Below, piece by piece: positions 14,034-30,001 of a stretch of 64,000 nucleotides of DNA. Location: the NCBI GenBank assembly GCA_002632265.1, contig NQOV01000009.1, positions 1 to 64,000 on the forward strand, given 5' to 3'. The notes under the pieces were generated by a model. The model made no database searches. It worked only from the letters and a program-made list of their open reading frames with translations, and was not told the DNA's origin. Origin of the DNA: Rhodospirillaceae bacterium MC!. GTDB taxonomy: Bacteria > Pseudomonadota > Alphaproteobacteria > MC1. Within the stretch, counting starts at the first letter, position 1, and the number at the start of each line of letters is the position of its first letter. The position numbers and the translations under genes were made by a program.

Positions 14034-14112
14034 TTTATCTTTTTCCTTTATTTATTGAATTAATATCAACCTTGAAGGATGTATTTTATATTACTCATAT
14101 TATAACCATTTG

Positions 14113-14907
14113 TTATTCTTGAACAATTTCCATATGATCATTATAGGTTACAAACACATCATCAGGCGAACCATACTCAACGACTTCCCCATGTTCTAAC
14201 ATAATAGCTTGATTACAAAGTTCTTTTACAGAATCTTCAGAGTGGCTGACAAAAAGGATGGTTTTTTTCTTGTCTTGGATTAGGTCTAGCATTTTTTTTG
14301 ATGATTTTTGTTTGAAATGGGCGTCTCCGACGGATAGGACTTCGTCTATTATCATGATATCAGAATTTAAATGAGCGGCAACGGAAAAGCCGAGTTTTGC
14401 CATCATGCCTGATGAATATTTTTTTACTGGTACGTGTAAAAAATCTTTTAATTCGGAAAAATCGATGATTTCTTCTAGTTTGTCATCTAATTCCTTTTGG
14501 CTCATGCCTAGGATATTACCGCTAATGTATATGTTCTCCAAGCCTGTTAGTTCGGGGTGAAAGCCTGTGCCGACTTCTAGTAATGAGCTAATACGTCCTT
14601 TTATGTAGGCTTCTCCTGATGTGGGTAGGATGACTTGAGAGAGAATCTTAAGTAATGTGCTTTTTCCTGCTCCGTTATGACCTATTACGCCTAAAACATC
14701 GCCTTGTTTTAGAGAGAATGAGATATCTTTCAATGCCCAAAAGTCATTTTTTGTTCTATTTAGCAATCTTGCTTCACGGCGGGCTCTTGCGATATTCCAT
14801 GGTAAGTGATTGGTTAATAGATCTTTTAAGGAATCTACGCTATTTGTTGTGTGAGGATAACATTTGCTAATGTTTTTTACATCCATTACGATATTATTTT
14901 TTAACAT
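14113..14907 (-). CDS. wzt: Polysaccharide ABC exporter ATP-binding subunit
   Basis: The product is about 264 residues: Walker A GHNGAGKST near residue 75, signature YSSGMMAKLGFSVA near 160, Walker B DIMIIDEVLSVGD and switch His in LFVSHS. It powers export of O-antigen or a similar polymer with Wzm. The start is the ATG two bases after the wzm stop, with AGGAAA seven bases upstream. It ends soon after the nucleotide-binding domain and lacks the C-terminal carbohydrate-binding domain of many Wzt proteins. Confidence 0.9.
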   Translation of the reverse strand: MLKNNIVMDVKNISKCYPHTTNSVDSLKDLLTNHLPWNIARARREARLLNRTKNDFWALKDISFSLKQGDVLGVIGHNGAGKSTLLKILSQVILPTSGEAYIKGRISSLLEVGTGFHPELTGLENIYISGNILGMSQKELDDKLEEIIDFSELKDFLHVPVKKYSSGMMAKLGFSVAAHLNSDIMIIDEVLSVGDAHFKQKSSKKMLDLIQDKKKTILFVSHSEDSVKELCNQAIMLEHGEVVEYGSPDDVFVTYNDHMEIVQE

Positions 14908-14908
14908 G

Positions 14909-15754
14909 TTATATTTCCTCAACAACACTACGTTCTAGTAAATTAAATACAAACAAACCCACAAAGAATACTACAACAGTAATAATTATTTGTATATACA
15001 TATCATGGGGAGCTATTAAAGGCGTGTTTAATATACCATGGCGAAAAAAGCTTAATATACTGTATGCTGGATTGTATGTTGCTATGAATCTGTATTTTTC
15101 TGGTAACATATCGATGCGTTTTGTCCAAATTGGTGAAGAAAACATCCATATCATTGATAATAGCCCTAATACTTGCCCTACATCTTTGAATTTTATGGTT
15201 ATTACGCTAAAAAACGCACTTAATCCTATTCCTAAAACGGTAAGCCATATTGTAGCCCAAATGAAATATAAAAAATTTAGACCAAACATATGTATGGTTG
15301 GCAAATGCCATATTAATTCCACAAGAGCAAGAATTATGAGTATGGGAATGAAAAGCAATGCCATATCGAACAGTATAGCTGTCATTTTTGCTATAATTAC
15401 TACTAAACGTTTAAAATATACTTTTGTGATTAGCCCGATATTGGCATGTAAAACCATAGCTCCATCGCCTAAAAAACGGCTTAAGCTTTGCCAAGCTCCC
15501 CAACCAATTAGTATTGATAAGAAATTTGCTCCATAATTTTCGGTTACACCCTTACCCATAATTATAGAAAATAATATAGCCATTGCTACAGGTTGTATTA
15601 TGATCCACAAAATCCCCACAAACATATTCTTATGGCGTGATGAAAACTCACGTAAAGCCATAGAATATATTAAAGATCTGTTTCTATATAAAATTTTAAT
15701 AGGTAAAAATTTGTATATATTAACTTTAGACGAAATTTTTATAATATCTGCCAA
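14909..15754 (-). CDS. wzm: Polysaccharide ABC exporter permease
   Basis: The product is a 281-residue ABC-2 type integral membrane protein with about six hydrophobic spans. An interfacial amphipathic start, ALREFSSRHKNMFVGILW, precedes the first span, and KFKDVGQVLGLLSMIWMFSSP and the NPAYSILSFFRHGIL loop are typical of Wzm/TagG permeases. It moves undecaprenyl-linked polysaccharide across the inner membrane. The start codon is TTG, supported by GGGAGT about seven bases upstream. One base separates its stop from wzt. Confidence 0.9.
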   Translation of the reverse strand: MADIIKISSKVNIYKFLPIKILYRNRSLIYSMALREFSSRHKNMFVGILWIIIQPVAMAILFSIIMGKGVTENYGANFLSILIGWGAWQSLSRFLGDGAMVLHANIGLITKVYFKRLVVIIAKMTAILFDMALLFIPILIILALVELIWHLPTIHMFGLNFLYFIWATIWLTVLGIGLSAFFSVITIKFKDVGQVLGLLSMIWMFSSPIWTKRIDMLPEKYRFIATYNPAYSILSFFRHGILNTPLIAPHDMYIQIIITVVVFFVGLFVFNLLERSVVEEI

Positions 15755-15850
15755 AATAGTACTCCCAAAATTGTTTTTAACATTATATATGAATATTAAA
15801 TAAATATCAAGGAGTTTAATAGATTATTTTATTATCTTGGTATATACGTT

Positions 15851-16378
15851 TTAAAAACCTTTTAAAAGCATATCTTTATCGGAAACAACCTCTTTTCCAG
15901 GCTTTACTTTCCAGTCGATATTTAATGTTTTATCGTTATAAATCACGCCTGTTTCAGAGGCTTTATTGTAGTAGTTATCACATTTATAAAAGAACATTGC
16001 CTCTTCTGATATTACAGAAAAGCCATGTAATAAACCACGTGGAATGAATAATTGTCTTTTGTTTTCGCTTGATAGTTCTACGGCTACATGTTTACCGTAT
16101 GTTGGGCTGTCTTTTCTTGAATCGACTGCTACATCGATGACCGCACCAGAAAGAACTCGTACTAGTTTGGCTTGTGCGTGTTCGCCTGTTTGAGCATGTA
16201 AGCCTCTGATAGTTCCGTAGGTGGAAAAGGATTGATTATCTTGGACGAAGTTGGCAGTTATGCCTAGATCTTTGAATGTGTTTTCGTTATAGCTTTCGAA
16301 AAAGAATCCTCGATCATCGGAAAATACTCTTGGTTCTAAAATGAAAACGCCTTCGATTTCTGTTTTGATAATGTTCAT
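15851..16378 (-). CDS. rmlC: dTDP-4-dehydrorhamnose 3,5-epimerase
   Basis: The product is a 175-residue cupin-fold epimerase. It has FVQDNQSFSTYGTIRGLHAQ with the catalytic His in RGLH, then KLVRVLSGAVIDVAVD and the Tyr-containing FFYKCDNYY. It converts dTDP-4-keto-6-deoxyglucose to the L-lyxo form. AGGAG lies nine bases before the ATG. It follows rmlB by 46 bases and precedes wzm. Confidence 0.95.
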   Translation of the reverse strand: MNIIKTEIEGVFILEPRVFSDDRGFFFESYNENTFKDLGITANFVQDNQSFSTYGTIRGLHAQTGEHAQAKLVRVLSGAVIDVAVDSRKDSPTYGKHVAVELSSENKRQLFIPRGLLHGFSVISEEAMFFYKCDNYYNKASETGVIYNDKTLNIDWKVKPGKEVVSDKDMLLKGF

Positions 16379-16424
16379 ATTTATTTACTCCTATGTAATA
16401 ATATTATTATATTTGGGTGATTCT

Positions 16425-17603
16425 CTAATCTTGTTCGATTTTATTAACCCATGTTTGATTATCTAAATACCATTTAATTGTTTTTTCTATTCCGTCAGTA
16501 AAAGGGGTTTCGGGATAGAAATTTAATTCTTTTACTGTTTTGGTAGGATCTATGGCATAGCGAGCATCGTGCCCTAGTCTATCTTGAACATAGGAAATGA
16601 GATTCTCGGAAATATCTTCCAAGTTGCAAGATACTATACTTTTATATTCATTCTTAATGCTACTACCGTCATTGGAAATTAATTTCTTGACTTTAGCGAT
16701 GATTAACTTAACGATATTAATATTTTGTTCTTCATTAAAACCGCCAATATTGTAGATTTCGCCATTTTTACCATTGGATACAATAATATCAATACCCTTA
16801 CAGTGATCATCCACATACAACCAATCACGCACTTGTTTACCGTCGCCATATACTGGAAGTTGTTTGCCTGCAAGAACATTTTGGATGATTAAAGGAATTA
16901 ACTTTTCAGGATAATGAAATGGCCCGTAATTATTCGAACATCTACTGATAGTTACAGGGAATTTGTAAGTTTCATTATATGCCATCACTAACATATCGGC
17001 ACTGGCTTTCGAACTAGAATAAGGACTTTTAGGATCTAGATTCGTACTTTCTGTAAAAAAAGCCTTACCGAAAGTTTTCGGATTCTGCGTTCGCCCCTGT
17101 AGAACTTGCTTGATATCTTCCGCAAGCTCCAACTCCACACCGTCAGGATACTCTCGAGACAACGCCCCGTAAACTTCATCTGTACCGATTTGGTGGAATC
17201 TTTTATCGCTCTCATATATGGGATAACCGTGTTCATCTTTGCCGATAGTCCATGAATTTTTAGCACAATCCATTAGGTTTTGAGTCCCTAAGATATTAGT
17301 TTCTAAAAATAATTTCGGATTCTCTATGGATCTATCCACATGAGATTCGGCGGCAAAGTTTATTACGTAATCTATATCATTATTGCCAAAGATATGATCA
17401 ACAAGTTCTTTATTACAGATATCCCCCTTAACAAAAGACACCCTCGAATCTTTCAACTCGTCTTCAATAGTAAAGAGATTACCCGCATAAGTTAAGGCGT
17501 CCAAAACTATAATTTTGATGTTAGCATGTTGCTTTAACATATACTTAACAAAATTAGCCCCTATAAAACCCGCCCCACCTGTAACTAGATATGTTTTACT
17601 CAT
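16425..17603 (-). CDS. rmlB: dTDP-glucose 4,6-dehydratase
   Basis: The product is a 392-residue extended SDR: the NAD loop GGAGFIGANF at residues 8-17, the active-site EVYG segment near 145, YSSSKASADMLVMAYNETY with the catalytic Tyr-Lys near 194-198, and NNYGPFHYPEKLIPL. It makes dTDP-4-keto-6-deoxyglucose from dTDP-glucose. It is about 40 residues longer than the usual 350; the extra residues fall near 310-345 (SNDGSSIKNEYKSIVSCNLE). It is the first gene of the minus-strand rhamnose-export group. Confidence 0.94.
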   Translation of the reverse strand: MSKTYLVTGGAGFIGANFVKYMLKQHANIKIIVLDALTYAGNLFTIEDELKDSRVSFVKGDICNKELVDHIFGNNDIDYVINFAAESHVDRSIENPKLFLETNILGTQNLMDCAKNSWTIGKDEHGYPIYESDKRFHQIGTDEVYGALSREYPDGVELELAEDIKQVLQGRTQNPKTFGKAFFTESTNLDPKSPYSSSKASADMLVMAYNETYKFPVTISRCSNNYGPFHYPEKLIPLIIQNVLAGKQLPVYGDGKQVRDWLYVDDHCKGIDIIVSNGKNGEIYNIGGFNEEQNINIVKLIIAKVKKLISNDGSSIKNEYKSIVSCNLEDISENLISYVQDRLGHDARYAIDPTKTVKELNFYPETPFTDGIEKTIKWYLDNQTWVNKIEQD

Positions 17604-17699
17604 TATATTTATTCCTTAATCTATGATAGAATTCTATATATGGATCTAATGATAACACAAAGCAGGAGTAAAATCTATTGTTTTTTTAATAAAAATTTA

Positions 17700-17728
17700 T
17701 AGACATTCTATCTCATACATGTTATATT
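17700..17728 (+). promoter_or_regulatory. Promoter candidate for rmlA
   Basis: TAGACA and TATATT are separated by 17 bases and lie 57 bases before the rmlA start. The match is one base off the ideal -35 and the region is AT-rich, so this is tentative. Confidence 0.45.
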
Positions 17729-17785
17729 TATATAAGTATGATTTATAATCTTATATAAATACAAATAAATATAAGGAGTCCCCCA

Positions 17786-18661
17786 ATGAAGGGCATTATT
17801 TTAGCTGGCGGAAATGGTACAAGGTTGTATCCAGCCACATGTTCGGTATCAAAGCAATTATTACCAATTTATGATAAACCTATGGTTTATTATCCACTTT
17901 CTACATTAATGTTAGCGGGTATTAAAGAAATCCTTATTATATCAACTCCGCTACATCTACCATTTTTCAAAGATCTATTAGGCGACGGCTCTAACTTTGG
18001 GATTTCATTAACATATGCAGAACAACAAGAAGCCAATGGATTGGCTCAAGCCTTTATTATTGGGGAAGAATTTATTGGCGATGATAATGTATCTTTAATT
18101 CTTGGGGATAATATCTTTTATGGTGCACACTTGTCGCCCTTATTGGAAAAAGCGGCGTCTTTAACCGATGGAGCAAAGGTTTTTGCCACTCATGTGGAAG
18201 ATCCTGAACGCTATGGTATTGTTGATTTTAACGAGAAAAAAGAAGTTATATCCATTGTCGAAAAGCCTGAAAAACCTGAATCTAACTATGCGGTAGTTGG
18301 ATTGTATTTCTACGATAATTCGGTGGTTGATATTGCTAAATCAATTAAAAAATCTGCTAGGGGCGAGTACGAAATTACCGATGTTAACAACGCCTATCTA
18401 CAAAAAAATAAATTATCGGTAGAAATAATGAGTAGGGGTATTGCTTGGCTGGATACTGGAACACATGAGTCCTTAAAAGATGCAACTGATTTTGTTTATG
18501 TTATTCAAAATAGACAAGGTATCATTATCTCTTCTCCTGAAGAGATTGCCTACAATAAAGGTTGGATATCACAAGAAAAATTATTAGAGCGTGCTAAGGT
18601 TTTTTCTAAAACTGCTTACGGTAGGAACTTGATGAATATATATCATAATAAGATATTATAG
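17786..18661 (+). CDS. rmlA: Glucose-1-phosphate thymidylyltransferase
   Basis: The product is 291 residues. The nucleotidyltransferase signature [14 protein letters not shown] is at residues 4-17, then [27 protein letters not shown] lies near 110 and [12 protein letters not shown] near 196. It forms dTDP-glucose from dTTP and glucose-1-phosphate, the first step toward dTDP-rhamnose. AAGGAG sits eight bases before the ATG. It is transcribed away from rmlBCD and converges with the HAD-RgpF gene, 13 bases between stops. Confidence 0.96.
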
Positions 18662-18674
18662 GGTATATTATATA

Positions 18675-21503
18675 TTATATTTTAAATTTTCTATATATTG
18701 GTCTCAAATATCTTGTAATGGTAGGGCAGTTTTTTAATAAATACTGTTTAATGTAAACTGGGATTTCTTTTGATAGACTACTCATCTTAAAACGATTAGG
18801 ACTATTAATCATAACGCTTTCTAATTTAATTAGCATTTTATTTTTCTCATGTTGATTGGGTATATTATATATAAATTCATAATTTTGAGAGTTGGCAACT
18901 ATACCTATAGTCTTTTCTATAGCATGTGGGAGATACCCATCAACATATTTTAACGGTTCATCTTCAAAATCCTCATATGTTAACTTAACTGTAAAATAAG
19001 GCTTTAAAGCACATGCCTTATAAATAAACATTGTGCCAGTTGAAAATTTCATATTATGTTGAGTTGGGAGCGTATTTATATTTAATTTTTGTAATAAGTC
19101 TATAATAGTCTTTTCACAGTTATTTACTCCTTTAACAGAAAACCAATTATTTACTAATTTATAATGTAGCGGTGGCGATATGACTCCTATATTATTATTT
19201 TCGGTTAAAATTTTGATATTGGCAGATAATGCTACAGGTGTAATTAAATTCTCAAGTAAATAATTAAGCCATTCTCTATGCCATGTAAAATGGCTACTTT
19301 TTTTCGAATGTAGATGAACAACATAATCATAGTCATTAATAATATCGTTAAATAATATAATCCATGGAGCTACATCTCGTCCTTTATTTTCTGAAATTCG
19401 TACCGTAAGATTCTTCATATTTTCTATCATAGGAAATAATAATTGGGATTTATGTTGAGTTGATAGGTTTGAAACTGATACTAATAAATCAAATTCATAA
19501 GGAATTTTCTCAAAATATTTGTAAAAATAATCAAACATTTCCGTATTGTATAAATGTAAATGGATAGCTAAGGATTTATCATGTGTATATATATCTGTAC
19601 AATCCTCTTTATAGAAATTATCTAAATGGAAAAAGCTAGAATTAGTTAATAAGTCTTTTTTGCGAAAAGATAATTTATCATATAATGAGTATGATAAATT
19701 TAACGTTTTGTCTGGATAAACTATATTTTCTAGTAGTTTATAATCTTTAATTTTACTATCAGAATTAAAATATTGCAGAAATCTTGCCATATCCATGACA
19801 TCATGATTAATTAAAGACAGTAAGTTTTTAAAAATAGAGGAAAATTTTTCAATACAATCTATTGCACCTATATGAATTAAATTTAAATCATTTTCCATAC
19901 TAGACGAGATAGGAATATTTTCTAAAGAAGTATTTAAAACCCCATCAATAAAATTGATACTTTCACAACTTCCTTCTATTTTAGAAAATATTTCCTCTAA
20001 AAAAACGTTAATTTCATCTACTATATGATCTATTAAGCTCAAGGTTTTTGTTTTATTCTTTGTGTCTAATTTATTATTTTTAGGATTATTCACCATTAAA
20101 TAGTATTTATCCACACTTTTATTCAATATTCTTGTTAAGGCATTGGACACACTGCCCGAATAACCAATGTCAAATATGCAAAGACGATCAGAAGTATCAT
20201 CTTGAAAATATTCCATATAAGAAGATTTTTCTATATGTTTTTCTTGTTCGATAAATTCATGTATTTTAGCTGTATTGATTTTTAAGAATCTCATAATGGT
20301 TTTAGCATCATATTTATCATCTAAATCCATTATTTTCAACTCTTGTTGAAAATCAGCAATAAATTTCTTATTAAAATACGCAATTAACATTTGTTCATTT
20401 GTTACTTTAAGATAATCATGAGATGGCCATTGGCTTATATATGTTTTAAGATTACCTGTAAAAGTATTAAACTTGTAAGATTGTCTTGAAACATACAAAT
20501 ATTCTGACGGAATGGCATTTGGATAATATTTTGCTAAAATATCATAAGCCTTTTGCGGTAAATAGCCATCACGTGCAGCAAAATATAACTTTTCATACTT
20601 GTTAAAAAATGGATCATTATGGGCAGTATTGGCAATTTTCATTAAAATGGGAGCTATGGAAAACCAACCCATATTATAATGGGAATCACAAAACAAGCTA
20701 TTATCATCAAATGGTTGATCACTATCTAGTAGAAGTGAATGAATCTGTTGACCAAATAAGAAACGATTATCTAAAGGAATGTGTTCTTTTTGTATCTTTA
20801 CCCATTCGGAATTTGCAAAAAAGATATCTACAGCTTGCGGTACATGATGAGTCAAAATACCACATTTTTCTGCCTGTTTGATATCAGATTGTAAATTATC
20901 CCCTATATGTAGGATTTCATCAGGTTTAATATCAGCTTTTAATTCTGACAATATATGCTTAAATAGCTCTCCAGATCTCTTATTTTTCCCAACTTCAGAA
21001 GATAAATACAACTTATCATAACCATTATAGCCAGTATTTTCCAAAATCTTTTCTATAACATTTTGAGGCAAATACATATCAGATGTAATAATAATTTTTT
21101 TACTATGCTCTTTAGCTAATAAATATAATTTTTTGACTAATTGAGATGGCTGTATTAACTGTACTTCAATATCTATTTCTATTTGTTTTAGCTTATTTGC
21201 TATTTCTTTTGAATATCCATGCTTTTTTTCTAAGGCTTGGTAAATCTCATCAAGTGTTATTTCATCCGTTTCCTTGTTTTTCTTATATAATTTTCTAGCT
21301 TGATCTTCCAAAGCTAATCTAGTTTGATAAAAGTCTTTTTTGATAATATTTAAAGCTTTCGCCTGTTTTGATACTAGATAAAAAATATCTGTAGGATATA
21401 TGGTGGGTCTATACACCAATGTATCAAAAATGTCAAAGCTTATAACTTTCACATCTTCTGATTTGATCAATCTCTCTATAAAGTTTAATTTGTAATCCAA
21501 CAT
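18675..21503 (-). CDS. HAD-like domain fused to rhamnan synthesis protein F (RgpF) domain
   Basis: The product is 942 residues. Residues 1-230 are HAD-like: VISFDIFDTLVYRP carries the DxDT motif, IIITSDMYLP motif II and ILHIGDNLQSDIKQA motif IV. A middle region of unknown type covers about 240-630, including LYFAARDGYLPQKAY and YLYVSRQ. The C-terminal 300 residues resemble RgpF: LTVRISENKGRDVAPW, DYDYVVHLHSKKSSH and WHREWLNYLL. RgpF-type proteins modify or extend rhamnose polymers. It is four bases downstream of a GT2 gene and close to the rml genes, so rhamnan assembly is likely. The substrate is not defined. Confidence 0.78.
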   Translation of the reverse strand: MLDYKLNFIERLIKSEDVKVISFDIFDTLVYRPTIYPTDIFYLVSKQAKALNIIKKDFYQTRLALEDQARKLYKKNKETDEITLDEIYQALEKKHGYSKEIANKLKQIEIDIEVQLIQPSQLVKKLYLLAKEHSKKIIITSDMYLPQNVIEKILENTGYNGYDKLYLSSEVGKNKRSGELFKHILSELKADIKPDEILHIGDNLQSDIKQAEKCGILTHHVPQAVDIFFANSEWVKIQKEHIPLDNRFLFGQQIHSLLLDSDQPFDDNSLFCDSHYNMGWFSIAPILMKIANTAHNDPFFNKYEKLYFAARDGYLPQKAYDILAKYYPNAIPSEYLYVSRQSYKFNTFTGNLKTYISQWPSHDYLKVTNEQMLIAYFNKKFIADFQQELKIMDLDDKYDAKTIMRFLKINTAKIHEFIEQEKHIEKSSYMEYFQDDTSDRLCIFDIGYSGSVSNALTRILNKSVDKYYLMVNNPKNNKLDTKNKTKTLSLIDHIVDEINVFLEEIFSKIEGSCESINFIDGVLNTSLENIPISSSMENDLNLIHIGAIDCIEKFSSIFKNLLSLINHDVMDMARFLQYFNSDSKIKDYKLLENIVYPDKTLNLSYSLYDKLSFRKKDLLTNSSFFHLDNFYKEDCTDIYTHDKSLAIHLHLYNTEMFDYFYKYFEKIPYEFDLLVSVSNLSTQHKSQLLFPMIENMKNLTVRISENKGRDVAPWIILFNDIINDYDYVVHLHSKKSSHFTWHREWLNYLLENLITPVALSANIKILTENNNIGVISPPLHYKLVNNWFSVKGVNNCEKTIIDLLQKLNINTLPTQHNMKFSTGTMFIYKACALKPYFTVKLTYEDFEDEPLKYVDGYLPHAIEKTIGIVANSQNYEFIYNIPNQHEKNKMLIKLESVMINSPNRFKMSSLSKEIPVYIKQYLLKNCPTITRYLRPIYRKFKI

Positions 21504-21507
21504 TCTC

Positions 21508-22593
21508 TTATAGCTTTCTCATATAACTTTTTATAATATAAAAATAATTCCATAACCTATTATACTTATTTAATATTCTAGAAACAAGATATTTTTTAGA
21601 GTAAATAAAATAATTATAATTTCCCTTTCGAATTTCTTCTATTAGTTGTGGTATTTTACTCTCATCTACACTAAATAGCTCTTCATGTTTTTTTAAAATT
21701 TCATGGATTCTTTTTAGCTCCAACCTAATATTGCAGGTTTTTAATCTATATATCGTATACATAAACAAATTAAACATAGCTTGTAATATTTCATATCGTA
21801 GTTGTAGGTCTATAGAATTATTGTTTAATAAAACTTGAATCTGCTTTTCATAAGTAAAAATAAAGGGATCGAAACTTTCCAAAGAACTAGTTTGATTTCC
21901 TTTTCTGATTTGCTTATAGTTATATAATTTTTTATTCATGACAAAAATATTACGTACATAAAAATATTCAGTTAAAGCAAATCCCCAATCAGAACAAGTG
22001 ATGTGTTCTAAGAAACTTATATTATTATCTAAAATAAAAGATTTTCTATGAAGTTTGGTCCATGGTGGCATAGGTAGATAACCATCAATTTTATAGTTTA
22101 TATCCTCTAAGGAAATACTGCGATTGTCAAAAGCTTCTAGATTTTTAGGCATACCATTCCATATGATAAAATTTCGCCCAAATTCTTCTATATAATTATT
22201 AGAATTGCAACAAATAAGATCTATATTGCTCGAATCATCTCTTAATGTCGCATTATATAACATCTCACAACAGTTAGATTCTAATGCGTCATCATTATCA
22301 ACAAAATATAACCAATCTGCTGTTGCATTCTCAATCCCTGTATTTCTCGCTCCACCCTCATGTTTGTTAACATCATGATTAATAAGAATAATTCTATTAT
22401 CCTCTTCCATATTTGCCTTAATGATATCCATAGAATTATCTGGCGAACAATCATTCACACAAATAATTTCAATATCCTGTAAAGTCTGATTTCGAACGCT
22501 CAACAGACATTCATTTAAATATTTTTCAGCTCCATATACTGGAATGATGATAGAAATTAGTGGTTTCATTAGTATTTCAATCTTTTTACTCAT
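21508..22593 (-). CDS. Family 2 glycosyltransferase
   Basis: The product is up to 361 residues. The GT-A fold starts at PLISIIIPVYGAEKYLNECL; IICVNDCSPDNS and the nucleotide-sugar motif LYFVDNDDAL (DND in place of DxD) follow, and KLHRKSFI lies near residue 180. It should transfer a sugar in the cytoplasm to a growing glycan. The start is uncertain: an ATG eight codons inside (22569) begins exactly at the fold, but neither start has a strong ribosome-binding site. It forms a two-gene unit with the HAD-RgpF gene. Confidence 0.85.
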   Translation of the reverse strand: MSKKIEILMKPLISIIIPVYGAEKYLNECLLSVRNQTLQDIEIICVNDCSPDNSMDIIKANMEEDNRIILINHDVNKHEGGARNTGIENATADWLYFVDNDDALESNCCEMLYNATLRDDSSNIDLICCNSNNYIEEFGRNFIIWNGMPKNLEAFDNRSISLEDINYKIDGYLPMPPWTKLHRKSFILDNNISFLEHITCSDWGFALTEYFYVRNIFVMNKKLYNYKQIRKGNQTSSLESFDPFIFTYEKQIQVLLNNNSIDLQLRYEILQAMFNLFMYTIYRLKTCNIRLELKRIHEILKKHEELFSVDESKIPQLIEEIRKGNYNYFIYSKKYLVSRILNKYNRLWNYFYIIKSYMRKL

Positions 22594-22749
22594 ATATTAT
22601 ATATGCAATGTTTTTTAATATCATATGAATTATATAATTATTTTACATGGAATGCAATAGATTTTATTTAGAATTATTTTTCCTAATCAGTATTGTAAAA
22701 TAATACATTTCATAATATAACATTTGGATTAGACATTAACGCACTTACT

Positions 22750-22968
22750 ATGAGCGAATCTAATAATATGTTAAGTGTTTCATTCATATTATTGGCCTAT
22801 TTTCTTTTTTGGATTGTAAATTTTGCCTTTAATTCTAAAATTACCTTTCGAAATGACAATACATGTGTAAATATTTTAGTATTAGCCCCTCTAACGTCAT
22901 TTGTAACTACAGGGGATTCGCCCATATTGTCATATCCATTAATTAAATATTGGGAGTTTAGAAAATAA
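22750..22968 (+). pseudogene. Possible GtrA-family remnant
   Basis: A 72-codon ORF with no clear ribosome-binding site. Residues 9-34 (SFILLAYFLFWIVNFAFNSK then ITFRND) resemble the membrane span and N-F-x-x-N-x-x-x-T-F end of a GtrA flippase half. The rest is unlike GtrA and upstream frames are closed by stops. GtrA proteins usually sit with polyprenyl-phosphate glycosyltransferases and GT-C enzymes, which is the context here. It could equally be a chance ORF in the 460-base gap between divergent operons. Confidence 0.3.
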
Positions 22969-22972
22969 TACT

Positions 22973-23001
22973 TTGATTCTTATTTTCATTTGTGTTATAA
23001 T
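22973..23001 (+). promoter_or_regulatory. Sigma70-type promoter for the 23-29 kb operon
   Basis: TTGATT and a perfect TATAAT are separated by exactly 17 bases, about 53 bases before the TTG start of the flavoprotein gene. This is the only strong promoter seen before this five-gene plus-strand run. Confidence 0.7.
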
Positions 23002-23054
23002 CCAAAAATTAATAGATATAGATATAGATTTAGATTTAAGGTACAGGTTGCATA

Positions 23055-24185
23055 TTGATTAAACAATTTGATTACATTATTTTAGGAGCTGGTATATATG
23101 GGTTATATATATCTAATATACTTGCGTCCAAGTTTCCCAAAAGAAGTATATTGTTATTAGAGAAAGATAATGCGCCGTTTTCACGTGCATCTTATATAAA
23201 TCAAGCACGTGTTCATAATGGTTATCATTATCCAAGATCATTACATACAGCTTTTAAAAGTGCTAAGTATTATGATAAGTTTTCAAAGGATTTTGATTTT
23301 GCTATTAATAATGAATTTAAAAAAATTTATGCAATATCAGAAAAATTTTCCTATGCTGGAGCTAATGATTTTCAACGATTTTGTGAAATATCTAATATCC
23401 CATGCGAAGAAATATCATCTAAGCCTTATTTTAAAGATGGAATGGTTGAGGCCAGTTTTCTAACGGAAGAAACATCCATGGATGGTAAAATTATAGCTAA
23501 ATATTTAACAGAAAAATTATCAGAACATAAAAACGTTACCACAAAGTATAATTTTGATTTTGCAGGAGTGGAAAACCTTAATAGTTCTTATAAAATTACC
23601 GCAAAAAATGCAGATGTTTACTCTTCTGATTTTGTAATTAATACTTCTTATGCCTCTGTAAATCAGATTATAGATAGATTTGGTTGTGAAAAATTTCCTA
23701 TTAAATATGAAATAGCTGAATTGTGTTTATGTGATGTATCTTTAAACCTTAAAAGAGTTGGTCTTACTATTATGGATGGTCCATTTTTCTCGCTAATGCC
23801 GTTTGGCTTAAGTGGATATCATTCGTTGTCAGCAGTTCATTTTACTCCGCATAAAACATCTTATGAAGAGCTACCAAACTTTCCTTGTATGACTCAAGAT
23901 GTAAACTGTAGCCCATCTCAATTAAATAATTGCAACTCGTGTAAAAATAAGCCCTCTACTGCTTGGAATAAAATGACTCAATTGGCAAATAAATACTTAA
24001 TAAATAACATTTCTTACACCTTTCATGAAAGCCTAATGGCAATTAAGCCAATTTTAAAAATATCAGAAGTAAGCGACTCAAGACCAACAGTGATTCACAA
24101 ACATTCAGATAGTCCTATTTTTGTCTCAATTCTTTCGGGTAAATTTAATACTATATACGATTTAGAGGAGCTGGCAACATGGTAA
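23055..24185 (+). CDS. FAD-dependent oxidoreductase (DAO/hydroxyacid-oxidase type)
   Basis: The product is 376 residues. The N-terminal Rossmann loop YIILGAGIYGLYISNIL is followed by LLLEKD for the FAD ribose. The segment ASYINQARVHNGYHYPRS resembles the FAD-contact region of L-2-hydroxyglutarate oxidase-like enzymes. A Cys-rich stretch (CSPSQLNNCNSC) lies near residue 300. It probably oxidises a hydroxyl or amine; the substrate is unknown. The start is TTG with AGG about seven bases before. Its end overlaps the next gene, and it leads an operon with a degenerate GT2, a Gfo/Idh dehydrogenase and two lipid-sugar genes, suggesting a sugar substrate. Confidence 0.75.
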   Translation: MIKQFDYIILGAGIYGLYISNILASKFPKRSILLLEKDNAPFSRASYINQARVHNGYHYPRSLHTAFKSAKYYDKFSKDFDFAINNEFKKIYAISEKFSYAGANDFQRFCEISNIPCEEISSKPYFKDGMVEASFLTEETSMDGKIIAKYLTEKLSEHKNVTTKYNFDFAGVENLNSSYKITAKNADVYSSDFVINTSYASVNQIIDRFGCEKFPIKYEIAELCLCDVSLNLKRVGLTIMDGPFFSLMPFGLSGYHSLSAVHFTPHKTSYEELPNFPCMTQDVNCSPSQLNNCNSCKNKPSTAWNKMTQLANKYLINNISYTFHESLMAIKPILKISEVSDSRPTVIHKHSDSPIFVSILSGKFNTIYDLEELATW

Positions 24186-25084
24186 ACCAAAGAGGTAAAG
24201 AGCAAGTTTTCATGTCTTTAGTTGTGTATTGTGATAAATTTGATGATAATATCAAAGCTAAATTAGTAAATTATTACAATATACTTAACGAAAATTTTAC
24301 AGAAATCGAATTCATTATTGTAAATGATAGCGAGATAAATATAACCGACCAATTGGAAAGTGATATGAAATCAACAGTAATTAATATGTCAGCCAAAACA
24401 GGTTTGGAACTGTCTCTTAAAGCAGGAATTGATTTTTGTATTGGTGATGTTGTTTTAATTATTAATTCTCTAGATTACAACTTAGATTTAGGCATTATTA
24501 CAAGATGTTATAATGAACTGGCGAATGGTTTTGATATAATTAGCCTATCGCCATCAGATATCAAAATATCATCGAAAGCATTCTATAAATTAATGCACAT
24601 ATCAGGATTAAAACATGAGTTATATACCGAAATTGCTACAATTATCACTCGTAGAGCCATAAATGTTTTAAATAAGTTTAAGCATAGCACATTCTATAGA
24701 AAGGCCATGTATGGATCATTGGGATATAAACATAAATGGTTGTTTTGTGAAATAACATCCTTTAACACGGAAGAAATACCAACAAAAATCAATAATGCCT
24801 TTAATTACATATTAACATACTCAACTTTTGGTACAAAGATCAGTATCTTTATTTCTCTGCTCTGTTTAACCATATCCATATTATTAGGCGGATACTCTCT
24901 CGGTATGAAATTATTTTATGATCAGATCTTTTCTGGCTGGGCGAGTATTATGGTCTTTATGTCATTTGGATTTAGTGGGATATTTGCAATATTAACTATT
25001 ATGTGTAAATATTTCGAGATTCTAGTAAATAATACCTTGTTAAGATCCCAATACAAAATATCATCAATTGATAATCATTCATAA
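24179..25084 (+). CDS. GtrB-like membrane glycosyltransferase homologue, probably degenerate
   Basis: The product is 301 residues. The first 220 follow a GT-A layout (FMSLVVYCDKFDDN, EFIIVNDS, then VVLIINSLDYNLDL). Two hydrophobic spans near 222-285 (ISIFISLLCLTISILLGGYS and SIMVFMSFGFSGIFAILTIM) match the tail of polyprenyl-phosphate glycosyltransferases. Where active relatives have DADLQHP, this protein reads NSLDYNLD, so the metal-binding DxD is missing. It may be a regulatory or structural partner of the intact enzyme at 26076. Its ATG overlaps the previous gene by seven bases. Confidence 0.65.
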   Translation: MVNQRGKEQVFMSLVVYCDKFDDNIKAKLVNYYNILNENFTEIEFIIVNDSEINITDQLESDMKSTVINMSAKTGLELSLKAGIDFCIGDVVLIINSLDYNLDLGIITRCYNELANGFDIISLSPSDIKISSKAFYKLMHISGLKHELYTEIATIITRRAINVLNKFKHSTFYRKAMYGSLGYKHKWLFCEITSFNTEEIPTKINNAFNYILTYSTFGTKISIFISLLCLTISILLGGYSLGMKLFYDQIFSGWASIMVFMSFGFSGIFAILTIMCKYFEILVNNTLLRSQYKISSIDNHS

Positions 25085-25100
25085 GGAAAGAAAAAAGAAC

Positions 25101-26051
25101 ATGCTTAACACTATACTTGTGGGATATGGATATTGGGGAACAATCTTACTTAATAAGATTCAAAATAATCATAATTTTAATTTAATTGGAATAGTAGAAA
25201 CTCACACAAAAATACCAGATGGAATAAATTTGTTTTCTACAATAACGGAAGCTTGCCAAAGTAATTCCGTAGATTGTGTAATAATTGCAACACCTGCATC
25301 AACACATAAAAGTATGTTATTGGAAGCAATGAATAATAAATTGCACATATGGGTTGAAAAACCACTAGTTAACAATGTAAAAGACTTTAAAGAAATCAAG
25401 GAAAAGATCATAAATTATGATAAACTTGTTTGGGTGGATCATACTTTTTTACAAACATCAGGATTTAAAAAGCTTAAAAAAGAACTATTGTCTGACTTAT
25501 TAGGTAAAGTATATAAAATAGATTCAATCAGAACTGATTTCGGCTTATTTCAAAAAGATGCTTCTATTTTTACCCATTTGATGTATCATGATTTTTATAT
25601 CGTTAATGATATTATAAAAGTAATATTTAATAAAACAATTAAAACATATAAAGGGCTAAAAATAATCTCTAATTCTCAAGTCTATGAGAATATTCCTGAT
25701 AGTGCTGTAGTATCATTTAATATTGATGATGTCAATATTAATATTAAATGTGATATGGGATTTGCAAAGAAAAATAGATATTTCCAAATATGGGGAGAAA
25801 AAGGCTTGTTAGTGTGGGATGAAACTCAAAACGATAAATTGTGTTTTTATCCAATCAGTTATGAAATCGACAATCAAGCAATAATATATAATATCAACAA
25901 TAGGCAAAAGATAATGGTTGATAATACTGATGCTCTTAATAGCATGTTAAATAAATTTAAAGATAAGGTCATATCTTTTGAAAATAATAATTTAGATAAT
26001 ATTGAAGATATTATGAGCCTATGTTTTCAATGTGATGAATTTAATGAATAA
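25101..26051 (+). CDS. Gfo/Idh/MocA-family NAD(P)-dependent oxidoreductase
   Basis: The product is about 316 residues. The Rossmann motif VGYGYWGTILLNKI is at residues 6-19, followed by CVIIATPASTHKSMLLEAMN and the EKP motif (HIWVEKPLV) near 90. THLMYHDFYIVND lies in the C-terminal beta domain. Members oxidise or reduce sugar hydroxyl or keto groups. The longest ORF begins with TTG inside the previous gene, so the ATG at 25101 is preferred, with GGAAAG upstream. Together with the flavoprotein it offers an oxidation-reduction pair within the operon. Confidence 0.85.
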   Translation: MLNTILVGYGYWGTILLNKIQNNHNFNLIGIVETHTKIPDGINLFSTITEACQSNSVDCVIIATPASTHKSMLLEAMNNKLHIWVEKPLVNNVKDFKEIKEKIINYDKLVWVDHTFLQTSGFKKLKKELLSDLLGKVYKIDSIRTDFGLFQKDASIFTHLMYHDFYIVNDIIKVIFNKTIKTYKGLKIISNSQVYENIPDSAVVSFNIDDVNINIKCDMGFAKKNRYFQIWGEKGLLVWDETQNDKLCFYPISYEIDNQAIIYNINNRQKIMVDNTDALNSMLNKFKDKVISFENNNLDNIEDIMSLCFQCDEFNE

Positions 26052-26075
26052 AGTACAATTTTAGGAGAAAAAATA

Positions 26076-27233
26076 ATGAATATAGATGTAACAATTTTAA
26101 TGCCATGTTTAAATGAAGAGATAACATTAGAACATTGTATCAATAATGCCAAAGAAGCAGGAAACAAGTTAAAAGAAAAAGGTTTCACATATGAAGTTTT
26201 AATATCAGATAATGGCAGTGAAGATAATAGCGTGAATATAGCGGAATCTTTAGGAGCTAGAGTTGTGCATTGCCCTAATAGAGGTTATGGGAACGCTTAC
26301 AAATTTGGAATTAAGGAGGCATATGGAAAATATATCATTACAGGCGATAGTGATGGTAGCTATAATTTTATAGAAGGTGTTCCAATGATTGATAAGCTTG
26401 AAGAAGGCTATGATTTATGTATTGGAACACGTTTAAAAGGTGAAATAAAACCTGGAGCAATGCCATGGAAAAATAGATATATTGGCAACCCTATCTTAAG
26501 TGGAATAATGAATATTTTATTTAGAACTGGTATTTCTGATGGGCATAGTGGTTTAAAAGCATTAAGAAGAGATCCTTTTATTAAAATGAATTTGGTTTCA
26601 TCAGGCATGGAGTTTACAACAGAAGTAGTTGTAAAAGCAACCCAATATAATCTAAAAAGAACAGAATTACCTATAACCTTAAGTCCTGATTTAAGAGATC
26701 GAGCACCACATTTAAAACCTTGGAGTGATGGATGGCGTCACTTGAAATATATGCTAATCTTTTCCCCAGAATGGATATTTGTCTTACCATCTTTCATTTT
26801 CATGATATTTGGAATTTTCATAAATATTCTCTTATTTTCACCATCAGACGTACCACGATTTGGAATGGGAATCCACTCATTGGTAATCGGTGATTTTGGA
26901 TTCGTATCGGGAATTACTCTGATGATATTTGGCGTTATTAATCACGCCATTGGCGAATCCATTGGCATACGCACAAAAAAAGGCCTGTTAGATAAATTAT
27001 ATAACCAATCAGCAGTTGAAAGAATCGGATTCTATGGATTTCTTGTAATGTGTGCAGGTATAATCATTTTATTAGCCATTACATTCATTTGGGTAGGAAA
27101 AGATTTTGGTAGTATCGACTTTATTAAGCTGATCCTACTTTCTGGTACTCTCATAGCTAGTGGTGGTATTACCTTTGTGGGAACATTCTTAATCGCATTA
27201 TTAAAAGATAATTGGATCAAGGTATCGCAATAG
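26076..27233 (+). CDS. Polyprenyl-phosphate glycosyltransferase-like GT2
   Basis: The product is 385 residues. The dolichol-phosphate-mannose-synthase-type domain has TILMPCLNEEITLEHCI, VLISDNGSEDNS, the metal site ITGDSDGSYNF near residue 92, and ISDGHSGLKALRR near 160. Four hydrophobic spans occupy about 230-375. Such enzymes move a sugar from a nucleotide to polyprenyl phosphate at the inner membrane. A GGAG ribosome-binding site lies about eight bases before the ATG, 24 bases after the dehydrogenase gene. It probably supplies the lipid-linked donor for the GT-C protein that follows. Confidence 0.85.
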   Translation: MNIDVTILMPCLNEEITLEHCINNAKEAGNKLKEKGFTYEVLISDNGSEDNSVNIAESLGARVVHCPNRGYGNAYKFGIKEAYGKYIITGDSDGSYNFIEGVPMIDKLEEGYDLCIGTRLKGEIKPGAMPWKNRYIGNPILSGIMNILFRTGISDGHSGLKALRRDPFIKMNLVSSGMEFTTEVVVKATQYNLKRTELPITLSPDLRDRAPHLKPWSDGWRHLKYMLIFSPEWIFVLPSFIFMIFGIFINILLFSPSDVPRFGMGIHSLVIGDFGFVSGITLMIFGVINHAIGESIGIRTKKGLLDKLYNQSAVERIGFYGFLVMCAGIIILLAITFIWVGKDFGSIDFIKLILLSGTLIASGGITFVGTFLIALLKDNWIKVSQ

Positions 27234-27273
27234 TAACTTATTTTTCATACTTTTAGAAGGAATGCTTATCATA

Positions 27274-29115
27274 ATGAATATATTGTATTATTTCTATAAT
27301 AAATTTTTCAACTTTCTATTTATAAATAGGAAAAAATTATCAATATTTATACCTTTTATTGCAGGAATAGTATTTGCATTATGTTATGTTTGGCATATTC
27401 ATAACTATTATTTTGTCTTTCCTCATAGTGCATTATTGTTTGTATTGTCGTCTCTGTCATTTTTAACATCTATATTGATAGTGTTAACATATGAAGATTC
27501 TAGAACTTTCCGAAGAATTGTAAAGGGTATATTACTAATTTGTTTAATGATTTTTATTGGATATATACTATCAGAGCTTAAGATTCTAGAACATAAGGTT
27601 TTAAGGTTTAGATTGATAAAGATCTTAACATTGCTGTTGTTGCTTATTAATACTATAGCGATTTTGTTTGAAAATAAAGTTATATCCGAATCCTATAAGT
27701 ATGTTGTTGAGAATAAACTAGAAGTATTGATGTATTTTATCTGTTTAATACCGTTTTTTTTGTATGTGGGAATTTTGTACCCAGGAGCGGCAAATGGCGA
27801 TACATTGTTTATGTTTCAACAAGCTTCAAGTATTTTGGCTATTAATAATTGGAATCCTGTTATTATAGTCTTTATTTTGAAATTATCGTCAGCTTTGCAT
27901 TTAAAAGCACTTACATTATTATATGTAATAAATACATTATCTATACTGTATTCTGCCATTATATTATCCAGACTAGTTAAAAAGTATAAAATGAAATATA
28001 TATTGCTAGTATTAGTATATATATTTCCTATAATTATGCATCATTTTTATTTACCACCTAAAGGTTCACTGACTACATTCTTAATTATGTGTGCAGTTTC
28101 GACACTTGTTTATTCATTATTTAATACAATATCATATCATTTTTATTTAGGAATAGCCTTCTTGATTGTTGTGTCTCTTATTAGACATAATCAAATTACT
28201 CAAACCTTTATTCTTCTTATACCATTTATTATATTGTATACTTATTATAAAAATACTTCTATAAAATCTAGTATGAAGATTATTATATTATTTTTAATAA
28301 TTATTTTGGGTTTAAATAAAACAATATTAAACAACAAAAATATTATTAACCAAATTGACCCTGCATCTTGGGTATATAGCTCTGATATATTATATATACT
28401 TCTTGATAATAAAAAAACTTGTAAAGAATATCAATTACTGGATAACACTACCAACTGTAAAAAGTATGATCAATTAGTAACTAATTTTGATAAACAAACC
28501 ACCTCGAATTCAATGGCGAAATATATATATATTCATTTTGCCAAGCCTTTCCAAGTAAGAGATATGAGATTATGGCTTAAATATATTTTAAACTATCCAG
28601 GTAGTTGGCTAGAATTTCATTATACAGCAACATTACAAAATTTTTTATATAGTAACCATTACACAAATAATTTAAAATATTCTTCCGATGAGGGTTTAAG
28701 AACTAAATGGCGAATCCAAACAGGAGTAAAAAATAAATATAATTATTCTCTAGGAGATGTTAAATTAAAAAAAGATAGTAAGATTGATGTTTTTATAAAT
28801 AAGCTTGCTATTAATATTTTGTTTAAATATAAACTTTACTTAATGGTTCTAATACTAATTACAACCTTTACAATCAATAAATTTAAATTTACCCCTATAG
28901 CTATGGATGGCATTGTTAAATATAGCTGTATATCATATTATTTATCATTGAGCTGTATAACACTATTCATCCCTTTAGTTTTATTAGTACCTACAGGTTG
29001 GGAAAGTAGATATCTTGCAGGCGTAGACTTTACTTTAATAGTGAGTATAGTAATGTTATTTATTTATCTGTATAAGAAATATACAATGATGAATAACCAT
29101 ATGGAAGTAAGTTAA
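27274..29115 (+). CDS. Large multi-span membrane protein, GT-C-like glycosyltransferase candidate
   Basis: The product is about 613 residues with a dozen or so hydrophobic spans. After about 170 residues comes GILYPGAANGDTLFMFQQAS, whose acidic loop after a span resembles the catalytic loop of GT-C or DUF6020-type proteins, then PIIMHHFYLPPKGSLTTFLI. The C-terminal 220 residues include a polar segment near 375-500 before the last spans. As last gene after a lipid-sugar synthase it may transfer that sugar to a surface glycan in the periplasm. An ATG four codons earlier (27262) is almost touching AGAAGG, so 27274 is preferred. Confidence 0.55.
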   Translation: MNILYYFYNKFFNFLFINRKKLSIFIPFIAGIVFALCYVWHIHNYYFVFPHSALLFVLSSLSFLTSILIVLTYEDSRTFRRIVKGILLICLMIFIGYILSELKILEHKVLRFRLIKILTLLLLLINTIAILFENKVISESYKYVVENKLEVLMYFICLIPFFLYVGILYPGAANGDTLFMFQQASSILAINNWNPVIIVFILKLSSALHLKALTLLYVINTLSILYSAIILSRLVKKYKMKYILLVLVYIFPIIMHHFYLPPKGSLTTFLIMCAVSTLVYSLFNTISYHFYLGIAFLIVVSLIRHNQITQTFILLIPFIILYTYYKNTSIKSSMKIIILFLIIILGLNKTILNNKNIINQIDPASWVYSSDILYILLDNKKTCKEYQLLDNTTNCKKYDQLVTNFDKQTTSNSMAKYIYIHFAKPFQVRDMRLWLKYILNYPGSWLEFHYTATLQNFLYSNHYTNNLKYSSDEGLRTKWRIQTGVKNKYNYSLGDVKLKKDSKIDVFINKLAINILFKYKLYLMVLILITTFTINKFKFTPIAMDGIVKYSCISYYLSLSCITLFIPLVLLVPTGWESRYLAGVDFTLIVSIVMLFIYLYKKYTMMNNHMEVS

Positions 29116-29139
29116 GACTAAATAAAAATGCTCATTGTA

Positions 29140-29382
29140 TGAGCTATACTCGGGCAGATATTTTTTTAGGCGAGCCGAATCTAACAGTGTTATACACAAC
29201 TTGTTCGATCACATATGTATTAAGTGGTTAATCTGTTCTTGTAACAATTTAACTTTCTTGTGAAAAGATAAAAATGATTTTATATCTGGTAATTTTTATT
29301 TAGAATCCACTATATTTACCTAAGATCTTGTTTTTGTGGTTTAGGGTTGTGGGTTGAATATTTAGGCCTGTAATTGTTAAAT
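29140..29382. repeat. Dispersed intergenic repeat, reverse-oriented copy
   Basis: GTTATACACAACTTGTTCGATC near 29190 resembles the GTTACACAAAGTTTGTTCGATC of 44381-44402. Reversed, AAAAACAAGATCTTAG (29320-29335) and the half palindrome TTACAGGCCTAAATATT (near 29356-29372) match blocks in the 44510-44573 element. The gap 29116-29476 holds nothing else recognisable. Confidence 0.55.
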
Positions 29383-29476
29383 TAGGGGTTGAAAGTGGGG
29401 GTGTTAGGGGTTATTTATTAGGTGTAAACTAGCTGAAATGATAATCAATCAATAACTTTAGAAATGGAGTAGAATC

Positions 29477-30001
29477 ATGTTAGTAAATGGAATTCAAGAT
29501 CAAAGTTATGGTAAATATATACCGCCTGCTAATTCGACAAAACATATTAAATCTCAAATAGATACAAATAATCAGAGTATGAATCTTGAGCAGGATAAGG
29601 CTGTAGAGGTGAATCAGTCTTTAGATCAAGCTATGCTTAATAATAGTCATGAAAGTAGTTGGAATTATACTCATATGGAAATTATTAATTTATACAATAC
29701 TTTAGATAGTAATAGTTATGCGAAAATAGATTCGCTAGCACAGAAGTATGCTCAATTATTAATTGAAGATACGCAAGATATCAATCATCAAGCGAAAAAG
29801 GATGTTGCGAATTTTGTTATAAATTCGCATACAAATAATAACCATGAAAACATGCTCTTTTTAAAGAGTTTAATTGAAAGTCATTACCCAACTTCCATGA
29901 GTCATAGCACTGTTACAGATCATCAGCTTGGATATTGTGATCCCAATGATTACACGATTATATATGCGGTGTTATCGGGTATTCGCAGGAAAAATCTGTA
30001 G
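29477..30001 (+). CDS. Hypothetical polar protein
   Basis: The product is 174 residues, not recognised. It is rich in Asn, Ser, His and Gln, has no signal peptide or membrane span and only two aromatic-rich patches (ESSWNYTHMEIINLYNTL; CDPNDYTIIYAVLSG). The ATG has GGAG seven bases before it and the ORF ends before a strong hairpin, so expression is likely. It stands alone between the polysaccharide locus and rplJL. Function unknown; no domain is claimed. Confidence 0.6.
   Translation: MLVNGIQDQSYGKYIPPANSTKHIKSQIDTNNQSMNLEQDKAVEVNQSLDQAMLNNSHESSWNYTHMEIINLYNTLDSNSYAKIDSLAQKYAQLLIEDTQDINHQAKKDVANFVINSHTNNNHENMLFLKSLIESHYPTSMSHSTVTDHQLGYCDPNDYTIIYAVLSGIRRKNL

Follow-up and report, generated by a model that had tools for sequence, protein, structure and literature searches.

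Putative redox remodelling of polyprenyl-linked sugars by a widespread flavoprotein cassette

What does a flavin-dependent oxidoreductase contribute to a group of genes for glycan assembly? The question is raised by five consecutive open reading frames (ORFs) on the forward (+) strand, at positions 23055-29115, of a 64,000-nucleotide stretch of contig NQOV01000009.1 from Rhodospirillaceae bacterium MC! (assembly GCA_002632265.1), referred to below as the window. In order, they encode a flavin adenine dinucleotide (FAD)-dependent oxidoreductase of the DAO superfamily (FLAVO), a membrane protein with a glycosyltransferase fold (GT2M), an oxidoreductase of the Gfo/Idh/MocA family (Gfo), a polyprenyl-phosphate glycosyltransferase of family GT2 and a probable GT-C-type membrane glycosyltransferase (gene 5). 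An earlier note on this sequence had proposed that they remodel a lipid-linked sugar by a logic resembling that of mycobacterial DprE1/DprE2. Here, the operon is interpreted, with a probability of about 0.5, as one example of a sugar-remodelling cassette that is widespread and feeds a polyprenyl-phosphate (three-component) glycosylation pathway, because FLAVO and GT2M lie side by side in most loci, their partner enzymes are exchanged, the catalytic histidine of FLAVO is conserved, flippases and gene fusions occur in relatives, and all five components recur in another locus (L118). More tentatively, the cassette may represent a separately evolved redox route on polyprenyl-phosphate sugars, combining a DAO flavoprotein, a catalytically dead GtrB that presents the sugar, and a plug-in slot that chooses which rare sugar is made.

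The intergenic distances across the five ORFs are -7, +16, +24 and +28 nt (40 nt instead of 28 if gene 5 starts at 27274), the 3' end of FLAVO overlapping the start of GT2M by 7 nt. With this tight spacing, a divergent gene upstream and 361 nt to the start of the following ORF downstream, the five ORFs likely form an operon, as the earlier note had proposed.

FLAVO and its GtrB-like companion

FLAVO (23055..24185, +; 376 amino acids, TTG start) matched the DAO model PF01266 with 28.1 bits (cut-off 27.9). Its AlphaFold2 model (pLDDT 93.8) retrieved L2HGDH, GlpD and glycine oxidase as the nearest solved folds in Foldseek, at 11-14% identity; a search of the PDB with the single FLAVO sequence gave no significant match. 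These top structures belong to the DAO superfamily, confirming the earlier assignment to the DAO type, with a fold unlike that of DprE1. A 72-row alignment revealed the family signature NQxRxHxGYHYPRS, and the window protein retains all family-invariant residues. Residue H54 aligns with the catalytic histidine of L2HGDH/GlpO (His92 in DmL2HGDH), and the invariant Q50 stands in place of Ser88, which binds the substrate carboxylate in L2HGDH, where His92 is catalytic (PMC10726252). The profile alignment with LhgO-type proteins covers the FAD-binding part only and stops near residue 213, the substrate domain being unalignable. Three specific identities were rejected: L-2-hydroxyglutarate oxidase (LhgO; 30.5 bits, cut-off 299), glycerol-3-phosphate oxidase (GlpO; 35.8 bits, cut-off 460) and UDP-galactopyranose mutase (score far under the cut-off). 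Assignment to amino-acid or small-acid oxidation with conserved substrate residues, which the earlier note had named as the outcome that would speak against it, was not what these scores, the replacement of Ser88 and the unalignable substrate domain indicated. By its sequence, FLAVO branches off separately within the DAO superfamily, and we read it as an alcohol-oxidising flavoenzyme whose substrate differs from that of the small-acid oxidases.

In most FLAVO proteins of the main clade there is also an insert with four cysteines (window: C-x6-C-x7-C-x2-C, residues ~278-296, 23886-23942). The distant proteobacterial branch lacks this insert, which may bind a metal or mediate an interaction.

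The adjoining gene, GT2M (24179..25084, +), gave a sub-threshold match to the GT2 Pfam model. Its AlphaFold2 model (pLDDT 87.5) matched GtrB (9nyf) over its full length in Foldseek, with a TM-score of 0.76, and the family profile retrieved GtrB 5ekp with E=5e-48. The protein consists of a GT-A fold and two C-terminal transmembrane (TM) helices. Both positions of the DxD motif are acidic in only 4 of 59 family members; in the window they are N96 and L98, and at I94 and N96 the window protein departs from residues retained by most relatives. The GT-A part is yet more degenerate on plasmids of Ruegeria and Sphingomonas. The "GT2-like membrane protein" of the earlier note can thus be refined to a degenerate GtrB without DxD: judged from these comparisons, GT2M is a GtrB relative that lost its catalytic motif, and it probably only binds the carrier-linked sugar as a non-catalytic subunit.

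A conserved pair with exchangeable partners

A scan of GTDB contigs for relatives yielded at least 580 genome stretches encoding FLAVO. The 80 best, a set defined by closeness to the query and not drawn at random, with some near-duplicates among them, share 47-54% identity with it and derive mostly from Firmicutes, with others from Bacteroidota, Gammaproteobacteria, Fibrobacter, Adlercreutzia and further groups. FLAVO is rare in Pseudomonadota: besides the window's own, clear relatives were found five times among 399 genomes of the phylum and seven times among 385 of the class. Among 98 loci, with genes called as simple ORFs, GT2M adjoins FLAVO in 91, on the same strand in 90, across Firmicutes, Bacteroidota, Pseudomonadota and other phyla. 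This association is far from chance.

The third component of the cassette is variable. Profile searches assigned SDR plus TIM to 58 of the 98 loci, DegT to 18, Gfo to four (the window, L066, L082 and L118) and TIM alone to four, the rarer classes being TIM plus AKR (2), SDR plus TIM plus DegT (2), AKR (1) and SDR (1); seven loci contain SDR-TIM fusions. A ketone-acting partner was thereby found in 90 loci. Among the eight without one, three (L039, L130, L134) have a Gfo or a classical SDR adjoining FLAVO according to Pfam, the Gfo match in L039 being, at 22.7 bits, just below the cut-off of 24; four (L038, L052, L053, L092) lie on short or truncated contigs, and L054 alone stays without a partner. 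The partner profiles were built from the examined loci; in the hold-out, comprising the 22 loci obtained after the classes had been defined (L128-L134, L135-L139, L142-L145 and L148-L153), all 22 contain a ketone-acting partner. On a quick FLAVO tree, with long branches and correspondingly rough counts, the five partner groups need 12 changes, and because Gfo requires at least four and AKR at least two on supported branches, partner swaps appear to have happened repeatedly.

SDR, AKR and Gfo enzymes reduce ketones, and DegT enzymes transaminate keto-sugars. In the cassettes, the TIM partner resembles the keto-sugar epimerase IolO and the DegT partner resembles PseC/WecE/ArnB. Since the exchangeable partners are almost all ketone-acting, the simplest common cause of this set is that FLAVO makes a keto-sugar, and a ketone intermediate is the element of the scheme that we hold to be highly probable. 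The pairing of an oxidase with an NAD(P)-dependent reductase, proposed for the window in the earlier note, is strengthened because the reductase slot has been refilled repeatedly by unrelated ketone-acting enzymes. The same note had called for a search for the five-gene order in other genomes and had counted a lack of co-occurrence against itself. Co-occurrence was found throughout (GT2M in 91 of 98 loci, a partner in 90 of 98 and in 22 of 22 held out), and locus L118 contains the same five components (Gfo, FLAVO, GT2M, an AglJ-like polyprenyl glycosyltransferase and a DUF6020 GT-C protein), but in an order different from that of the window. One conserved five-gene order had to be rejected, as gene order and partner vary widely.

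A literature search of open-access papers found no description of the FLAVO-GT2M cassette, a widespread but apparently undescribed family. In L134 (4331-9925), a distant FLAVO adjoins Gfo, with nearby genes that by eye resemble those for transaldolase, heptose kinase, nucleotidyltransferase and phosphoheptose isomerase, a context hinting at heptose remodelling.

Lipid carriers and the proposed pathway

Three further genes complete the window operon. Gene 3 (25101..26051, +; the ATG at 25101 is preferred, a longer TTG start at 25068 being possible) matched PF01408 with 62.9 bits, retains the EKP motif and aligns with the Gfo partners of L066, L082 and L118. Gene 4 (26076..27233, +) matched the GT2 model PF00535 with 89.5 bits, TIGR04182 (AglJ) with 113.5 bits (under the curated cut-off of 325), PpgS with 62.5 bits and PfDPMS (5mlz) with E=2.5e-9; it has a DSD motif and four C-terminal TM helices, and is by these matches a polyprenyl-phosphate glycosyltransferase. 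It shares 29% identity with the corresponding enzyme of L118, and a Citrobacter plasmid encodes a relative with 43% identity, next to GtrA and a large membrane protein. Gene 5 (27262..29115, +; start at 27262 or 27274) has 13 predicted TM segments and, after TM5, a loop (YPGAANGD...NP) resembling that of the DUF6020 protein of L118 (YYPAIMAYD...HHP). No Pfam or NCBIfam model matched it, no homologue but itself was found among 299 genomes of the phylum, and its comparison with the GT-C-like proteins of L118 and the Citrobacter plasmid gave no useful similarity; a DUF6020 search of its own genome returned no match, with controls equally silent. Of the families named in the earlier note, Gfo/Idh/MocA and polyprenyl-phosphate GT2 thus hold by profile, and gene 5 is a probable GT-C enzyme by topology and loop motif.

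Links to lipid carriers recur among the relatives. In 82 of the 98 loci, one of three canonical types of polyprenyl glycosyltransferase is present besides GT2M, and by eye L041 and L077 contain a GtrB-like one, L077 together with GtrA. GT-C-type proteins (DUF6020, DUF6056, weak PMT_2) are among the annotated neighbours of FLAVO loci. In Rhodobacterales and Sphingomonas, plasmids carry the arrangement SDR-TIM-GT2M-FLAVO-GtrA-GT2a, after which a large membrane protein is usually encoded; in Rhodobacter, this protein and GT2a form a single GT2-PMT_2 fusion, whose PMT_2 match lies under the cut-off. This operon is near-identical on plasmids of Sagittula, Roseobacter, Rhodobacter, Cereibacter, Ruegeria and Sphingomonas (L142-L145, L136, L138), and exosortase genes lie beside it in Ruegeria and Rhodobacter. 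In Cereibacter, the operon was read in C. azotoformans, and a plasmid of C. sphaeroides likewise encodes FLAVO. The 10.8-kb Psychrobacter plasmid pA22P4 (L137, NZ_MN657058.1) has the cassette as its main cargo: besides SDR, TIM and FLAVO, it encodes a transporter of the SMR type, GT2M fused to GT2a, and a membrane protein whose WTDE loop is GT-C-like; the PLSDB gene table for this plasmid gives only part of the fused glycosyltransferase gene.

In the proposed pathway, gene 4 would take a sugar from a nucleotide donor and attach it to polyprenyl phosphate, and GT2M would bind the carrier-linked sugar and recruit FLAVO to the membrane. FLAVO would oxidise one ring hydroxyl to a ketone, passing the electrons to quinone or oxygen, and the gene 3 product would reduce the ketone with NAD(P)H to yield the epimer. 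A flippase encoded elsewhere would then turn the lipid-linked sugar outward, and gene 5 would transfer it to an extracytoplasmic acceptor, plausibly, from the position of the genes, the rhamnose-containing glycan of the adjoining ABC-exporter locus. Delivery through polyprenyl phosphate is likely; for oxidation on the lipid-linked sugar the odds are about even, and oxidation on the nucleotide sugar is a tenable but less favoured course. The order of reactions and flipping by a protein encoded elsewhere are the arrangement that we would expect in this organism.

The scheme has parallels in several known systems. In the DprE1/DprE2 pathway, a FAD oxidase and an NAD(P)-dependent reductase epimerise a polyprenyl-phosphate sugar, which is served by the SMR flippase Rv3789 and by GT-C arabinosyltransferases (PMC11127046). 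As proposed, the cassette shares the oxidise-then-reduce scheme and a probable GT-C transfer, and an SMR flippase occurs in its relatives. It is nevertheless not a member of that pathway, to which no sequence relation was found: its flavoprotein has a DAO rather than a VAO/PCMH fold; the reductase in the window is Gfo and not SDR, although SDR partners occur in many relatives; and loading is assigned to a GT2 polyprenyl glycosyltransferase instead of a phosphoribosyltransferase, with GT2M as an extra component. The likeness drawn in the earlier note is therefore one of logic. Citrobacter youngae O1/O2 uses three-component systems to add pentofuranose side chains to a rhamnose-containing O antigen that is exported by an ABC transporter (Kelly et al., 2024, PMC11127046), with an auxiliary epimerase inside an extracytoplasmic side-chain system as proposed for the cassette, but with loading based on phosphoribosyl pyrophosphate, a MATE flippase, a single SDR epimerase and neither flavoprotein nor GT2M. 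Their own ORF13 and the homologues of DprE1/E2 were the only epimerases of O-antigen side-chain systems known to these authors. With GtrA-GtrB-Gtr(type) and CsbB-GtcA-YfhO (PMC7389260, PMC8035078), the cassette has in common a GT2 polyprenyl glycosyltransferase and a probable GT-C enzyme, as well as GtrA on several FLAVO plasmids; unlike them, it includes redox enzymes, and the window operon has no flippase of its own. Gfo plus DegT nucleotide-sugar pathways of the GnnA/GnnB kind also form a keto-sugar by oxidation before transaminating it, but their first step is NAD-dependent, and they are not known to involve a flavoprotein or a lipid carrier. Overall, the cassette looks like a redox-extended three-component glycosylation system.

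If this interpretation is true, the cassettes in at least 580 genome stretches, small plasmids and viral contigs would point to a large set of candidate rare surface sugars and provide an enzyme family to assay, along with a case in which a glycosyltransferase fold seems to serve anew as a subunit without catalytic function. From the enzyme in the plug-in slot, one could also predict whether the product is a neutral epimer or an amino sugar.

Alternative explanations and genomic setting

Several observations weigh against the lipid-linked interpretation, some of them from viral records. On the 386-kb viral contig IMGVR_UViG_3300028591_000070 (IMG/VR; L148), a FLAVO with 45% identity occurs with SDR and TIM next to a T4-type beta-glucosyltransferase, and GT2M was not detected in the record. 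In L149, Gfo-FLAVO lies near NeuB and cytidylyltransferase genes, and in L151-L153 FLAVO accompanies DegT, Gfo, SDR or TIM without GT2M (these viral records may be fragments). The oxidise-and-remodel core can hence be used without lipid carriers. In addition, the GT-C identity of gene 5 lacks profile support, the carrier-binding role of GT2M has an alternative in that the protein could anchor a soluble polyprenyl glycosyltransferase, and the FLAVO proteins of L086 and L128 are near-identical, so that not all loci are independent. The window operon contains no flippase gene; a single GtrA was found in the genome, at another place (C7:201620-201994). Along L148 (6135-11773), a thymidylate-synthase-family gene, kinase-like genes, FLAVO-SDR-TIM and the T4-type beta-glucosyltransferase stand in a row, possibly for a new sugar hypermodification of phage DNA.

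Because GT2M was not detected with the viral cassettes, which also lack a neighbouring polyprenyl glycosyltransferase, oxidation of a nucleotide sugar is a serious rival. FLAVO would then oxidise a nucleoside diphosphate (NDP)-sugar, the partner would reduce, epimerise or transaminate it, and gene 4 would load the rare NDP-sugar onto polyprenyl phosphate for use by gene 5, with GT2M as a mere membrane anchor. NDP-sugars are the usual substrates of DegT and Gfo enzymes. The T4-type beta-glucosyltransferase belongs to a class using UDP-glucose, FLAVO-Gfo occurs near the NeuB and cytidylyltransferase genes of L149 and the heptose-kinase-like gene (by eye) of L134, and the window Gfo weakly matches UDP-GlcNAc 3-dehydrogenase (46 bits, cut-off 450). 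Against this, GT2M accompanies FLAVO in nearly all cellular loci having polyprenyl glycosyltransferases and was undetected in the viral records without them, and numerous cassettes lie by themselves, without neighbouring genes for NDP-sugars (L062, L113, L117). That GT2M is missing just where a lipid carrier is not expected is compatible with a carrier-binding role. Chemistry at the nucleotide level is accordingly regarded as a real but secondary possibility.

Rather doubtful, though compatible with the other readings, is the idea that GT2M is a membrane activator of a soluble polyprenyl glycosyltransferase and not a partner of FLAVO. The cassette glycosyltransferases GT2a and GT2b have no predicted TM segments, GT2M is fused to GT2a on pA22P4, and a separate membrane protein has been proposed to activate a GT-A enzyme in the rhamnose polysaccharide system of S. 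pyogenes (PMC8035078). However, GT2M is present in the window regardless of the four TM helices of the polyprenyl glycosyltransferase there, and it is FLAVO that it adjoins in 91 of 98 loci, rather than GT2a or GT2b.

It is very unlikely that FLAVO oxidises a small hydroxy acid or a glycerol phosphate-like metabolite, in which case the glycosyltransferases would handle a substituent other than a sugar, for instance a modified glycerol or an acid decoration. The cassette flavoprotein shares its fold, FAD domain and catalytic histidine with L2HGDH/LhgO and GlpO/GlpD, and glycine oxidase is also among its nearest folds, but it differs from them in substrate domain, in the invariant glutamine replacing Ser88, in its low family scores (35.8/460 and 30.5/299) and in a genomic context of sugar enzymes, polyprenyl glycosyltransferases and GT-C enzymes. 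Least plausible of all is a non-functional relic of a horizontal transfer that is now in decay, which the low GC content (27-30% vs 35-39% in most flanking parts) and the loss from GT2M of residues that most relatives keep (I94, N96) might suggest, but which is countered by five intact, tightly spaced frames, a FLAVO with every family-invariant residue and GT2M degeneration elsewhere too (L136, L138).

The surroundings of the operon bear on the acceptor. Nearby, at 13200-21503, lie RmlA, RmlB, RmlC and RmlD, an ABC-2 type exporter pair and an RgpF-domain gene, which mark the neighbourhood as that of a rhamnose-containing glycan exported by an ABC system. The last of these genes (18675-21503, - strand) encodes a 942-amino-acid protein with an N-terminal HAD-like domain and a C-terminal RgpF (rhamnan synthesis) domain. 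Between the operon and ribosomal protein genes lies a 174-amino-acid ORF (29477-30001, +) without a Pfam match. The single promoter claimed in the earlier note could not be upheld: a consensus scan gave an extended -10 candidate (TTGATT-17-TATAAT) at 22973..23001 (+), yet in this AT-rich stretch such sites occur at chance frequency (62 found in the window vs 54 +/- 7 expected). Finally, because its GC content of 27-30% over 18-30 kb is lower than the 35-39% of most other parts of the window, the glycan locus at 18000-30000 appears to have been horizontally acquired.

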